Assembly (NCBI RefSeq): GCF_023634025.1
Contig: NZ_JALJCW010000002.1
Location: 186,001-250,000, forward strand
Source: Hanstruepera flava
GTDB taxonomy: Bacteria; Bacteroidota; Bacteroidia; Flavobacteriales; Flavobacteriaceae
Length of the DNA: 64,000 nucleotides
Reading direction: 5' to 3'
The translations under genes and the position numbers were made by a program. Positions 30,935-35,210 of this stretch are shown piece by piece; position 1 is the first letter of the stretch; the number at the start of each line of letters is the position of its first letter. The notes beneath the pieces are model-generated. The model had not been told where the DNA came from. It did not search any database and saw only the letters and a list, made by a program, of their open reading frames with translations.

Positions 30935-31029
30935 TACTCTAAATCCCTAAAGGGGACTTTTAATCTCATAGCATAGTTTAATTTTGAAGCGTCTAGAGAC
31001 TAGATTATAGAGGCTAGACGACAACGCAA

Positions 31030-31420
31030 CATAAACAACAACAAGCAGTTATTGTGATGAAAAGCGCGCTGTCATAGCGAGGATCCAGACGTTTACTGTC
31101 TGGGGACGTGGCAATCCCTTTTAGGGTTCTGGTGTTATTTGAGAAGTTAGGTTTTATTCTTTTGGGTTATAATTATTTACTTAAGTTAGACATTGTGTTT
31201 TGTTTTTGTTCATTTTGTCTTGATACAAAACGAACCAAAAAATCAAGAAGATCTGGAGGACATTCTTTCAGACCATTCGCCTCTTTTTTTTATTAGAATT
31301 TTGAAGACTACAGTTTATTTTTTGATTTTGCCCTAGTATTAAATTGCTTATTTTGTTTTTATGTCTCATTATGTCTTCAGACCTTCTATTTTCCGGCTTT
31401 GCCGGAATTTGGTTTAAGTG
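31030..31420. repeat. Composite intergenic repeat with T-run/A-run and CCGGC hairpins
   Basis: It holds a REP-like unit at about 31068-31120 with CCAGACGTTTACTGTCTGG, and a hairpin of GTTC...GAAC with inner TTTTG/CAAAA near 31208-31232. A CCGGC-TTT-GCCGG hairpin followed by AATTTGG lies at about 31392-31410. The same pair of hairpins recurs at 34850-35030 and 37550-37710. No coding sequence was recognised. Confidence 0.6.
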
Positions 31421-31439
31421 CGGGTTGTAATTAGACTTG

Positions 31440-31990
31440 TAAAAGGCTGGACAGAGGGTTTGACAATTCAAGGAGGTGTTTTTTTCAAACGCCTTTTTCT
31501 TTATTTCTGTTATCACTTTAGAAAATTCATTCCACTCTTCATCTGAAGAGGGTAGCTGTACTAATTATTAATTAACCAAGAGGCTCCTCCCTTGAGTTGA
31601 AGGGAGGTGGATAAACTGCCAGTAAGCAGTTTAGACGGAGGGTTTGAAATAGTAATTATATAATTTAAATCAAACTCCTCTTTCTTTACTTCCGTTATCA
31701 CTTCAGTAAATTCATTCTCCTCTTTATCTAAAGAGGAGAGCTTAAATGGATAGTATATTACCAACTGGACCTCACTTTAGATGAAGGGAGGTGGCTAGGT
31801 TTGGTAAAACCTAGACGGAGGGTTTGAAATAGTAATTATATATTTAAAATCAAACTCCCCTTTCTTTGTCTCCGCAAGCTACGACAAATTCATTCCCCTC
31901 TTCATCTGAAGAGGGGAGCTTAAATAGTTAATATATTACCAACTGGCTCCTCACTTTAGATAAAGGGAGGTGGCTAGGTTTGGTAAAACC
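31440..31990. repeat. Tandem array of about 180-bp hairpin repeats
   Basis: Left arms GGAGGGTTTGAAAT at 31637-31650 and 31817-31830, with a third, diverged arm at 31994-32007, are spaced 180 and 179 bases apart. Each of the first two is followed after 18 AT-rich bases by the inverted right arm ATCAAACTCC(T/C)C at 31669-31680 and 31849-31860. Each unit also has a CTAGGTTT...AAACCTAG stem (not in the 31637 unit) and a CTCCTCTTT-ATCT-AAAGAGGAG or CCCCTCTTC-ATCT-GAAGAGGGG stem. A more degenerate unit starts near 31452. No genes. Confidence 0.85.
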
Positions 31991-31993
31991 TAG

Positions 31994-32413
31994 ACGAAGG
32001 GTTTGAATTAGTCTTCAAAATTAGAAGTAATCTCTTTTAAGACAGACGGTAAATTTTCAAAAACTAATTTATTTTCAAATCGAATAACCGTATAGCCTAA
32101 ATTTTCTAAATGGCTAGAACGTATATTATCATACTCTTGAGCTACAGGATTGTTGTGTACTTCACCATCTAGTTCAATGATAAGTTTTTCGGATGCACAG
32201 TAAAAGTCTACAATGTAGTTTTTAATACTATGTTGTTTTGTAAATCGTTTGCCTTTTAACTGCCTTGACTTAATATGTGTCCATAAAAACGCTTCAGCTG
32301 GAGTCAGGTTTTTTCTTAATTCCTGTCTTTTGGTTTTTAACTGGGTTTTGTTGTGTATCCGTTGTTTGGGCATAAATTAAATATAATAAAATTAATTATT
32401 CAAACTCCTCTTT
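31994..32413. mobile_element. Putative DUF559-bearing cassette bounded by inverted repeat arms
   Basis: Left arm GACGAAGGGTTTGAAT (from 31994) and right arm ATTCAAACTCCTC (32398-32410) are inverted copies (11 of 13 bases pair). They enclose exactly one gene, whose stop codon begins at 32008, one base after the left arm core. In neighbouring copies of the same repeat the space between the arms is only 18 AT-rich bases. Thus the gene occupies the loop of the repeat. Mobility is inferred from this filled/empty contrast; no transposase is present. Confidence 0.55.
32008..32373 (-). CDS. DUF559 (Vsr-like) endonuclease-domain protein
   Basis: 121 residues, basic N-terminus then the DUF559 fold related to very-short-patch repair and PD-(D/E)xK nucleases: RKNLTPAEAFLWTHIKSRQL, RFTKQHSIKNYIVDFYC, LIIELDGEVHN (conserved E-x-D of the active site) and NLGYTVIRFENKLVFENL. 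The family is common in Bacteroidota as single small genes of unknown job. This one lies on the opposite strand to the surrounding polysaccharide genes and exactly inside the inverted arms of a hairpin repeat. No promoter was recognised. Length matches the family, so it looks intact. Confidence 0.88.
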   Translation of the reverse strand: MPKQRIHNKTQLKTKRQELRKNLTPAEAFLWTHIKSRQLKGKRFTKQHSIKNYIVDFYCASEKLIIELDGEVHNNPVAQEYDNIRSSHLENLGYTVIRFENKLVFENLPSVLKEITSNFED

Positions 32414-32600
32414 CTTTATTTCCGTTATCACTTTAGTAAATTCATTATCCGCTTATCAAACTCCCCGTCCAAACTGCGTTTGTCCACCCCTCTTCGCCTG
32501 AAGAGGGGAGCTGGGTTGGTTATAATTTATTTACAAATGGCTCCTCACTTTAGATAAAGGGAGGTGGCTAGGTTTGATAAAACCTAGACGGAGGGTTTGA
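32401..32600. repeat. Right-hand part of the hairpin-repeat array
   Basis: Begins with CAAACTCCTCTTTCTTTA, the normal continuation of a right arm. A rearranged stretch follows (32450-32500) with CCCCTCTTC-GCCT-GAAGAGGGG, then another left half with CTCCTCACTTTAGATAAAGG and GACGGAGGGTTTGAAA (about 32588-32602), which has no right arm after it. No gene. Confidence 0.75.
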
Positions 32601-32694
32601 AACCTTAAAAGCTTAACCGTTGCTCGATAGAGCTTATCTGTTTATCTAATTGGTACATCTTTCACTTTGTTTTCCTGTAATTAGTATTATTTTT

Positions 32695-32770
32695 AAAGTT
32701 GTAAAAACACATTATGGAAAAATGTTTTTAGGCAATCGCTTTAAATCGTATTCATCCCGTGAAACCTAAA
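32695..32770 (+). pseudogene. Remnant of a GIY-YIG gene 3' end
   Basis: Bases 32700-32769 translate as VKTHYGKMFLGNRFKSYSSRET and stop, nearly the C-terminus of the intact GIY-YIG protein at 32933-33238 (LKTHYGKMYLGNRLKSY). About 90% of bases agree over 49 positions. Upstream of it the frame has no GIY-YIG N-terminus. A GTGAAAC...GTTTCAC hairpin (32755-32784) interrupts the copy. Confidence 0.75.
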
Positions 32771-32817
32771 TTTGTTTCACAGGATAAATGAGTCAAGTTA
32801 ATAAGTTAGAAGATAAA

Positions 32818-32850
32818 GAGATTGCCACGGCGCAAGCACCTCGCAATGAC
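32818..32850. repeat. Single REP-like palindrome inside the duplicated segment
   Basis: 33 bases from GAGATTGCC to CGCAATGAC, a member of the GTCATTGCGA...GGCAATCTC family with a short core. The parallel segment of the second copy (about 33205-33240) lacks it. Confidence 0.7.
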
Positions 32851-32870
32851 AAATAAGTTTTAATGATAAT

Positions 32871-32923
32871 GGAAAATAGAATTAAAGAATATAGTTATTT
32901 AATTACTGGCGGAGCTGGGTTCA
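32871..32923 (+). pseudogene. Truncated 5' copy of the sugar epimerase gene
   Basis: ATG at 32871 starts MENRIKEYSYLITGGAGF, matching the N-terminus of the intact epimerase (INNKIKEYSYLITGGAGF from 33234 on). The copy breaks off in the middle of the Rossmann glycine motif at GGGTTC and runs into the start of the GIY-YIG gene. Confidence 0.8.
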
Positions 32924-32932
32924 ACCCATGAA

Positions 32933-33238
32933 ATGATGACAGAATTAGATCAAACATATTATTTTGTTTATATTTTACAATCATTGAAAGACGGTAATAA
33001 ATATACAGGTTATACCAAAGATCTGTCATCAAGATTTGAGGCGCATCAGAAAGGAAAAGTCAAATCTACAAAACATAGACGACCATTAAAGTTGATATAT
33101 TTTGAAGGGTGTTTAACACAGGAAGATGCATTGAAACGTGAGAAATATTTAAAAACACATTATGGAAAAATGTATTTGGGCAATCGCCTCAAATCTTATT
33201 TCATAAGTCAAGTTAATAAAGTAGATGAAAATGATTAA
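32933..33238 (+). CDS. Stand-alone GIY-YIG nuclease domain protein
   Basis: 101 residues comprising a single GIY-YIG (UvrC/UPF0213-like) domain. YFVYILQSLKDGNKYTGYT holds the YxY...YTG version of the motif, SSRFEAHQKGK has the catalytic Arg, ALKREKYLKTHYGK has the catalytic Glu/helix, and it ends with LGNRLKSYF. Related to homing endonuclease catalytic domains, but without a DNA-binding tail. The 3' end overlaps the start of the epimerase gene by 8-14 bases. The gene sits between a truncated and a complete copy of that epimerase's 5' end. Chosen start ATG 32933 (ATG 32936 also possible). Confidence 0.88.
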   Translation: MMTELDQTYYFVYILQSLKDGNKYTGYTKDLSSRFEAHQKGKVKSTKHRRPLKLIYFEGCLTQEDALKREKYLKTHYGKMYLGNRLKSYFISQVNKVDEND

Positions 33239-34196
33239 TAATAAAATAAAAGAATATAGTTATTTAATAACCGGAGGGGCTGGGTTCATCGGTAGCAATT
33301 TAGTTGCATACCTGTTGAAAAACAATGCTAAAAAAGTACGTGTTTTAGATAATTTCTCCAATGGGTATCGTGAGAATCTTTCCGAATTTATGAATCGCCC
33401 TAATTTTGAACTTATGGAGGGGGATATCCGTGATTTGGATACCTGTAAACAAGCCATGGCAGGTATGGATTATGTGAGTCATCAGGCTGCATTAGGTTCT
33501 GTACCACGGTCTATTAACGATCCTGCTACAACTAACGCTGTTAATATTTCGGGTTTTTTAAACATGATGATTGCATTAAAGGATTCTGATACCGTTAAAC
33601 GTATGGTTTATGCGGCTTCGAGTTCTACCTATGGTGATAGTCTGTCATTACCTAAAGTTGAAGATACCATAGGAAAGCCCTTATCGCCCTATGCGGTTAC
33701 TAAGTTTGTGAATGAATTATATGCTGATGTTTTTGGAAAAACGTATGGCACCGATGTTATAGGGTTGCGCTATTTTAATGTGTTTGGCCCTAAGCAGAGC
33801 CCCAATGGGGCTTACGCGGCGGTCATTCCGTTGTTTATGCAGGCCTTGAGTGATAATGTACCGCCTAAAATTAATGGCGATGGCGAGCAAACACGCGATT
33901 TTACTTATGTTGATAATGCGGTGCAAGCCAATATTAAAAGTTTTTTTGCTGACAACACGGCTAGCAACCAGGTTTTTAATGTGGCCTGTGGTGAACGGAT
34001 TAGTGTTAATTACCTTTGGGAAAGTCTTCAGCTAGCTGCAGGTTCCGATTTAAAAGCGGTTTATGGACCACCACGTCAAGGCGATGTTCGTGATAGTTTG
34101 GCTGATATTTCTAAAGCGGAAGGTCTGCTAGGGTATCAGCCTGAAGTTTCAGTTCGTGAGGGTTTGAAACTGACTTGGGATTGGTTTAATAAATAA
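33225..34196 (+). CDS. NAD-dependent UDP-sugar 4-epimerase (SDR; TviC/WbpP-like)
   Basis: 323 residues, extended short-chain dehydrogenase fold. The NAD motif TGGAGFIGSNL lies near residues 14-24, DNFSNG after the second strand fixes the cofactor ribose, the catalytic Ser/Thr is in SSSTYGDS, and Y-x-x-x-K is in SPYAVTKF (about 155-162). It most likely interconverts the C4 configuration of UDP-GlcNAc or its uronate, making UDP-GalNAc(A) together with the dehydrogenase at 29651-30934. The two enzyme genes, usually adjacent, are separated here by 2.3 kb of repeats and nuclease cassettes. Starts at 33225 and 33231 are both possible. Confidence 0.9.
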   Translation: MKMINNKIKEYSYLITGGAGFIGSNLVAYLLKNNAKKVRVLDNFSNGYRENLSEFMNRPNFELMEGDIRDLDTCKQAMAGMDYVSHQAALGSVPRSINDPATTNAVNISGFLNMMIALKDSDTVKRMVYAASSSTYGDSLSLPKVEDTIGKPLSPYAVTKFVNELYADVFGKTYGTDVIGLRYFNVFGPKQSPNGAYAAVIPLFMQALSDNVPPKINGDGEQTRDFTYVDNAVQANIKSFFADNTASNQVFNVACGERISVNYLWESLQLAAGSDLKAVYGPPRQGDVRDSLADISKAEGLLGYQPEVSVREGLKLTWDWFNK

Positions 34197-34203
34197 CTAA
34201 TTA

Positions 34204-34530
34204 TTTGTCATTCAGAAGGAGGTTATAAACCGACTGAAGAATCTCTTTAAAAAAATATGCCTACTGTCATTGCAAGTTGGCAAACGACTGTGGCAATCTC
34301 CTTTCCCTAATTATGAGATGCTGAAATAAGTTCAGCATGACAGAGAGATTCTTCACTTCACTACGTTCGTTCTGAATGACAGAGAGATTAGCTGCGCTGA
34401 ACCTAAAGGTTTCTTCACTTTACTACGTTCACTAAATAAAACAGATCCATGTCATTCAGAAGGAGGACGATAGGACGACTGAAGAATCTCTACTAAAAAA
34501 TACCCCTTTTGTCATTGCGGGACAGCGCGT
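34204..34530. repeat. REP-like palindrome cluster after the epimerase gene
   Basis: Units GTCATTCAGAAGGAGG...CTGAAGAATCTC at about 34207 and 34451, GTCATTGCAAG...GGCAATCTC at about 34266, GAGATGCTGAA...TTCAGCATGAC at about 34315 and GAGATTCTTC...GAATGAC at about 34346. Same superfamily as at 25080-26010. No gene. Confidence 0.8.
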
Positions 34531-34599
34531 TTAAAAACAGTATATTACAGTTTTAGTGCTTTCTTTCTTTTTTATTCATGGGTTACTATTTTTTTTAAA

Positions 34600-35210
34600 G
34601 GAATTCATGAATGCTTCGCATTTGCATCGATCAAATAGTTCGACAGGCTCACTACAGGCTAGAAACAAAAAACTCTAGACTTACTTTTAATACCTTGAAA
34701 ATCTTACGAACAAGTTTTATCGTGTGCATTGCAACCGCTTTGCTTCGGCAATGCTCCGCTACCAGCCGCCATACTTGTTCTTGATTTTACTACGGTATTA
34801 AAACTAGGTCGTTTTGGGAATCTGATTGTAATGAGATGGTGTTTATTCTTTTTTTCTGGTCAAAAAAAGAACCAAAAAAGACTTTTACTGCCAGAGGTAT
34901 TTTTAAAGGTTTTTTTAGAAAGCCTTTAAAACCATAAACCCATCCCTAGATTTTTTCCAAGGCTTCAAAAATCTTAAACGGGATGTGTTTATCTATACTG
35001 CTGCCAGTGGTTTTCGGCAGAGCCGAAATTAGGTTTGACGTTGTTTACTTATGTGAATTCAATGCCCGTGCACGAGATTGCTCCTGTATTAGCATAGTCC
35101 ACTGGACTATTTCTTAACGCTTGGCCGTATCTGAAGAGGAGAGCTGTACTAGTTATAATTGATTACCAAAAGGCTTCTCACTTTAGATAAAGGAGAGACG
35201 GAGGTATTGA
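34600..35210. repeat. Composite repeat region, non-coding
   Basis: Holds GAACAAGT/ACTTGTTC inverted ends (34707 and 34764 area) around a TTGC-TTCG-GCAA hairpin, and a TTCTTTTTTT/AAAAAAAGAA hairpin (about 34848-34873). A TTTCGGC-AGA-GCCGAAA hairpin is near 35012, and a degenerate GACGGAGG-type arm is at about 35198. The order matches the composite at 31030-31420. I see no supported coding region. Confidence 0.6.

Follow-up and report, generated by a model that had tools for sequence, protein, structure and literature searches.

How a short nuclease gene came to stand directly before a sugar-nucleotide epimerase gene, with pieces of both genes recurring just upstream, is the question raised by this locus of Hanstruepera flava. 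In the window (the whole stretch of 64,000 nucleotides that was analysed), the 3' remnant of a GIY-YIG gene is followed by the 5' remnant of an epimerase gene, an intact GIY-YIG open reading frame and an intact epimerase open reading frame (Table 1), which is the order that an earlier note on this DNA had described. The note's figure of about 90% agreement between the two segments is a fair one, as 129 of 146 aligned bases are identical (88%, gapped alignment). Its description of the locus as a partial tandem duplication is right as to the likeness of the segments, but these are better read as two successive units at one site. The likeness exceeds chance: the best local match between the flanks of the window GIY gene scores 68, compared to a 99th percentile of 36 and a maximum of 73 in 1407 control pairs of flanks taken from different loci (SDR-SDR pairs omitted).

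Table 1. Features of the nuclease-epimerase locus, in window coordinates
Feature	Position	Strand	Evidence or remark
Upstream region common to the uninterrupted G003 locus (same genus)	32400..32694	+	Likeness stops where the GIY remnant starts
Unit 1: remnant of first GIY-YIG gene, 3' part	32695..32754	+	32695-32752 vs 33143-33200, 86%
Palindrome inserted where the unit 1 right repeat belongs	~32755-32787	+	DNA fold -7 kcal/mol, z -2.95
Unit 1: GIY 3' end, continued	32788..32819	+	vs 33203-33234, 81%
Unit 1: epimerase 5' end up to the cut at the Rossmann motif, displaced by unit 2	32866..32923	+	32866-32923 vs 33231-33288, 83%
Unit 2: left end (AACCCATGAAATGA)	32923..32936	+	Its TGA ends the displaced frame, 9 nt beyond the motif
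Unit 2: GIY-YIG nuclease ORF, intact	32933..33238	+	101 aa (codons); PF01541 E-value: 3.3e-17
Unit 2: right end (TTATTTCATAAGTC), within nuclease ORF	33196..33209	+	10/14 to end consensus, degenerate
Unit 2: carried epimerase start, ATG to motif	33225..33288	+	31/39 nt like G004, 15/39 like G003
Host gene: SDR sugar-nucleotide epimerase	33225..34196	+	323 aa; PF01370 E-value: 2.7e-52

The intact nuclease has the GIY-YIG catalytic domain (PF01541, 63 bits; cut-off 22.6). This is the sole open reading frame of the unit; it matches PF01541 alone and no known transposase. The Tyr, Gly, Arg and Glu positions of the domain, which are catalytic, are invariant in seven aligned nuclease proteins. The closest solved structures in a profile search are BH0048 (1zg2, E-value: 4e-9) and EF2693 (1ywl, E-value: 1.1e-5), both UPF0213 single-domain GIY-YIG proteins that resemble the window nuclease at the profile level. 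With dN/dS values of 0.03-0.23 in six nuclease pairs, the nuclease appears to be under purifying selection. The best NCBIfam model of the host protein is TviC (324 bits, below the cut-off of 760). The nuclease and epimerase reading frames overlap by 14 nt and are probably translated in a coupled fashion. An intron was considered and rejected: positions 31000-35000 of the window have no Rfam match at an E-value of 0.1, the related loci L094, L126, L119 and L063 have none at gathering scores, and the window protein shows no likeness to group I intron endonucleases at an E-value of 0.001. Three relatives have a below-cut-off likeness to a group I intron endonuclease model.

The remnant of the first nuclease is recognizable at the protein level (residues 71-101 of the window's own nuclease match it by tblastn) and is interrupted not only by the palindrome but also by ~40-50 extra bases between ~32818 and ~32865. 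Before the motif, the two epimerase starts are alike at 31 of 39 nt. A local alignment to L011, the uninterrupted locus of G003, spans window positions 32400-32705. The palindrome was also considered as a dispersed repeat; this was rejected, since the genome has a single copy when up to 3 mismatches are allowed. Several repeat copies lie between the dehydrogenase and epimerase genes, around a DUF559 gene (32008-32373, minus strand; PF04480, E-value: 1.2e-34), and one 79-nt repeat has seven full or partial matches in the genome, mostly nearby.

Comparison within the genus indicates which part of the epimerase gene is new. Four other genomes of the genus were searched (G001-G004), and none has a full copy of the window nuclease at the epimerase site. 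The site is empty in G001-G003, and within the genus the gene is mosaic, with a break at the motif; in G004 the 3' remnant of a GIY gene lies immediately before the epimerase gene, and G001 has a 46% relative of the nuclease elsewhere in its genome. Over the 300 nt past the Rossmann motif, the window gene is closest to that of G003 (89.7%), with G004 and G002 at 75.7%. Over the 39 nt before the motif it matches G004 at 31 positions, G003 at 15 and the other relatives compared at 14-20 (G001, whose motif did not fit the search term, was read separately). The window and G004 epimerases both begin with NNKIK(E/D)YSYL. By eye, a (Y/H)Hxx(D/E)(L/I)S-like stretch opens the protein in seven of the eight nearest uninterrupted relatives (L011-L018), the start of G013 differing from the other seven. 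Because the 5' end is unlike G003 and like G004 while the body is closest to G003, the window epimerase is considered foreign up to the motif. The single unit of G004 is like unit 1 of the window in having lost both the native start and the greater part of the nuclease gene. In the window, a deletion probably removed the native start together with the 5' part of the first nuclease copy.

The earlier note had proposed that a nuclease cassette carrying a fresh gene start displaced the old start upstream and left the gene whole, and the same order recurs among relatives. In 84,980 species genomes scanned, 244 relatives were found, and the best 80 of them were retained. Among these 80, all 26 SDR-hosted loci (24 found by motif search, L066 and L092 added on reading) consist of the old 5' end cut at the motif, the GIY gene, a new ATG and 5' end, and the remainder of the gene. 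No GIY gene upstream of an epimerase gene without a duplicated fragment was seen among the 80; the sole flagged case, L073, is not SDR-hosted (its SDR gene lies farther off) and was left out of the 26. The hosts are TviC-like, RmlB-like and other SDR genes, and this lineage of nucleases sits in the Rossmann-motif codons of SDR sugar epimerases and dehydratases. Within the 397 family genomes, 11 (window included) have a member of the nuclease subfamily at E-values below 1e-30, the next matches being at 1e-18 with ~50% identity or less. Nine of the 11 members precede an SDR gene (L044, one of the nine, is incomplete on the left), and the other two sit inside genes resembling those of a four-helix-bundle (S23-like) family, as we presume these hosts to be. 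The exact left junction (GGNTTYAACCCRTGAAATRATG) is found in 8 of the 397 family genomes, every time at such an SDR-type locus; a reversed-pattern control gave 0 in all rows listed.

The reading frames of these loci are arranged much as in the window. Of 27 loci, 22 have a displaced frame that ends at the left-repeat TGA, 9 nt beyond the motif, and in 23 the carried ATG, taken as the farthest in-frame ATG, falls between 17 nt inside and 57 nt beyond the nuclease stop. The flank-duplication score is above the control 99th percentile in 21 of 27 SDR loci, window included, and not above it in six, which weighs against the carried-start reading. Early breaks disrupt the nuclease in L082 and L091, and no start codon is evident in the displaced piece of L080. 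In L080 (the same locus as L041) the nuclease frame is open into the downstream SDR gene, a possible nuclease-dehydratase fusion of 450 codons counted from the start of the match.

The SDR loci have a common order and a common insertion point, and the new start goes with the nuclease. The clearest instance is Galbibacter sp. EGI 63066, in which two contigs (L067 and L068) have the same unit in two different SDR genes. The host proteins are ~35% identical over their first 110 residues and the units 91.7% identical over 396 nt; the likeness begins at the left end and drops at the motif, ~350 bases past the nuclease start. In L068 the displaced start of the host is short (MKILITGVAGF), and the host now opens with MKNKDSKKNKRILITG, like its sister copy. 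Correlations were taken across 27 loci (the 24 from the motif search, the window, L066 and L038, without L092), which are not independent (L038 and L070 are near copies). Nuclease distance correlates with distance of the carried start, at r 0.273 (p 0.0006) or, when the body is held fixed, 0.197 (p 0.006), and shows no correlation with that of the displaced start (0.029, p 0.37), which follows the host body (0.264, p 0.0002). Distance of the carried start is itself correlated with that of the host body (0.298) and of the displaced start (0.469); spread mainly among related hosts, later conversion or partial local copying would each fit these two values.

These observations point to a mobile unit, composed of a nuclease gene and a replacement 5' end, that would enter SDR genes at the Rossmann motif by a form of intronless homing in which a gene start is carried along; we put the probability of this reading at about 0.7. 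The proposed sequence of events is as follows. The unit would consist of the GIY-YIG gene between a left and a right terminal repeat, followed by a new ATG and a replacement 5' end. The nuclease is predicted to cut at approximately TGGxGCxGGxTTY^ATHGG, in the glycine-rich codons of the Rossmann motif, and repair would then copy the unit in. The left junction would form at the terminal repeat, and the right junction through likeness over the motif or, between orthologous genes, deeper in the body. The host's own start would remain upstream with its frame closed by the left-repeat TGA, and the gene would now begin with the ATG brought by the unit, close to the nuclease stop or overlapping it, with the old promoter plausibly serving both nuclease and epimerase. 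The carried start would restore the motif and leave the same site open to re-entry, which in the window would have taken place twice. The motif is indeed restored after insertion, with no evident protection for the new allele, which counts against the homing reading; the idea that a recoded carried motif guards against re-entry was considered and rejected, no consistent recoding being seen by eye.

The ends of the element bear on a different mechanism. Both ends fit an end consensus, which leaves variable columns free, in 76 of the best 80 of the 244 relatives (L086, L106, L132 and L135 fail), and they are covarying inverted repeats. Pairing of each locus's own ends gives 912 matches, the maximum in 2000 shuffles being 842, and at two variable columns pairing is 0.92 and 0.89 in own pairs compared to 0.41 and 0.37 in swapped pairs. 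The elements so bounded are 271-366 bp long, with 55 of the 76 at 292 bp or less. Such ends would be expected if the GIY-YIG protein acted in a transposase-like manner on them and inserted the element at many kinds of site, the SDR start being copied from the host at or after insertion. Members outside SDR genes lie in or beside four-helix-like, RAYT-like and other unrelated genes (assigned by motif or by eye) and bring no gene start with them; the flank-duplication score exceeds the control 99th percentile in only 1 of 52 such loci (2 of 54 were dropped for short flanks). The displaced start of L066 and that of L076 are almost equal to their carried starts (0.96 and 0.98), which would fit local copying or later conversion and counts against homing with a carried start; in both, a short palindrome separates the SDR start stretch from the left end. 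Against transposition, the moving part in SDR hosts runs beyond the right repeat to the motif, the carried start tracks the nuclease lineage, and no target-site duplication is evident by eye in coding contexts. Transposition of this kind is judged unlikely, and homing with a carried start is favoured, since in SDR hosts the mobile part extends beyond the right repeat and stops at the motif. The paired ends nonetheless suggest a mechanism beyond plain homing, and the earlier note's comparison with intronless homing applies in part: the phage type falls short of the inverted-repeat ends.

In L095, L105, L107, L108, L119, L121, L123 and L129 the elements lie, by eye, inside RAYT/Y1 transposase-like genes, at two conserved motifs (NHFHL and NPVHHGF). 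L006, L007 and L054 were examined as possible carriers of gene ends and rejected, as dispersed repeats raise the flank score there. Short palindromes that contain no gene and resemble two joined ends occur at window positions 32755-32787 (where the arms, judged by eye, resemble the two ends of the element), at 2944-2980 in L066, at 2936-2972 in L076 and near 2960 in L133. These palindromes, beside or within elements, are possibly non-autonomous derivatives.

Units can be stacked, as they are in 5 of 27 loci. L094 contains the native start (MKKVLVTGMAGF), a full unit, a second full unit and the gene remainder, and each unit brings M(N/S)KHKIKKILVTGMAGF. In L092, L100 and the window, the second unit lies behind a first nuclease that is truncated at its 5' end, and in L101 a decayed right end is visible upstream (by eye). 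The window thus appears to contain two successive units of which the first has decayed, with L094 as the undecayed form, and two entries at one site would explain it simply. The simplest rival account is that a long-resident GIY gene and the first bases of the epimerase were duplicated in place and that copy 1 then decayed, nothing having moved. The window does have two like segments in succession, and in L094, where the two nuclease copies differ by a dS of only 0.06, the second unit may have arisen by amplification through recombination between the start copies, as might also be the case in the window. Local duplication leaves unexplained the single-unit order at 21 of the 26 + 1 loci read, the foreign 5' end within the genus, the presence of the same unit in two unrelated host genes and the absence of the gene from the site in G001-G003; as a full account it is disfavoured and very improbable. 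Polysaccharide loci are exchanged frequently and the host gene adjoins genes for a Wzc-like kinase and a nucleotide-sugar dehydrogenase, so that exchange by recombination at the conserved motif might have carried the GIY gene along as a bystander, but the use of the same point in several kinds of SDR host, the element's own paired ends and the purifying selection on the nuclease leave this the least probable reading of all.

A sister group of nucleases provides a parallel on tRNA genes. Of 26 more distant GIY loci compared, 13 have a tRNA gene directly downstream (Arg, Met or Ala; L033, L034, L045, L046, L048, L050-L053, L055-L057 and L059), eight have one upstream instead and five have none. 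In all 13, part of the tRNA 5' end recurs as a copy upstream of the nuclease, over 16-24 nt in nine and 9-13 nt in the other four. This looks like the same principle as that of the SDR units, with a nuclease unit that would have entered a tRNA gene and brought a new 5' part. A hairpin-like stretch is seen by eye past the copied tRNA piece.

Taken with the end repeats, these loci could represent a class of minimal elements of ~0.3 kb in Bacteroidota and several candidate phyla, in which the sole gene would encode a single-domain GIY-YIG protein acting on its own ends. One lineage would home to the Rossmann motif of sugar-nucleotide enzymes, exchange their gene starts and with them the N-termini, and stack at its sites; the end palindromes would perhaps be non-autonomous forms, and the sister group would act likewise on tRNA 5' parts. 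This wider proposal is put forward tentatively, as one that could well be correct. If the repeat-ended family moves by means of the GIY-YIG protein alone, it would be a very small self-sufficient mobile element. Ten relatives (L104, L110, L111, L120, L125, L128, L130, L131, L138 and L142) are on contigs titled as Patescibacteria-type candidate bacteria, at some distance from Bacteroidota; the titles are taken as given and binning errors are possible. Relatives in viral contigs were also sought, and of 100 pattern matches none was confirmed as a relative.

Integrative elements are known to rebuild the end of a tRNA or protein gene upon integration, using an integrase and attachment sites. The window unit resembles them in that a conserved gene is entered and the cut-off part replaced, and differs in encoding a GIY-YIG protein only. 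No bacterial element of the present kind was found in the literature searched, which was covered mostly at abstract level and thinly for preprints and subscription journals, and the accessible text of a 2006 survey of GIY-YIG proteins (PMC1564403) makes no mention of one. The nearest known counterparts are the gene hybrids formed by mobile open reading frames in fungal mitochondria, described for atp6 of Allomyces and for atp6, atp9, cox2 and nad3 of Glomus, with a GIY-YIG enzyme in one of the four Glomus cases (PMC3630166, from the portion accessible). As in the window, an endonuclease open reading frame has entered a conserved gene and supplies foreign sequence in place of the end that was cut off; the native end persists in a displaced position, and the replaced end differs in ancestry from the body. 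Unlike in the window, it is the 3' end (C-terminus) rather than the 5' end that is replaced, and the genes are mitochondrial rather than on bacterial chromosomes, so the window unit is like these hybrids and not a member of the group; paired inverted ends are not mentioned in the accessible part of that account (PMC3630166). The Seg and Mob enzymes of phage T4, as far as the available text describes them, are free-standing and lie next to conserved genes, and their insertions can split genes (PMC2988022). The window nuclease gene is similar to those of the free-standing Seg enzymes in adjoining a presumed target that lies in a conserved and functionally critical stretch and in overlapping its neighbour in a way that suggests coupled translation (PMC2988022, PMC1564403). 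In contrast, the T4 enzymes sit between intact genes or split their host, whereas the window insert supplies the start of its host (PMC2988022, same text), and cutting is known for several Seg enzymes and predicted for the window nuclease.

The unit would be a mirrored counterpart, on bacterial chromosomes, of the fungal mitochondrial hybrids, in which a selfish nuclease enters a useful gene and pays by rebuilding its start. Homing with a carried start would explain why sugar epimerases of these bacteria have mosaic N-termini and why short GIY-YIG genes lie directly before sugar epimerase genes. With a conserved motif, defined unit boundaries and uninterrupted relatives at hand, cutting and transfer are directly testable. 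Another GIY-YIG group, represented by L047, L049, L054, L058, L060, L061 and L062, lies ~120-385 nt downstream of an intact tRNA-Asn gene.
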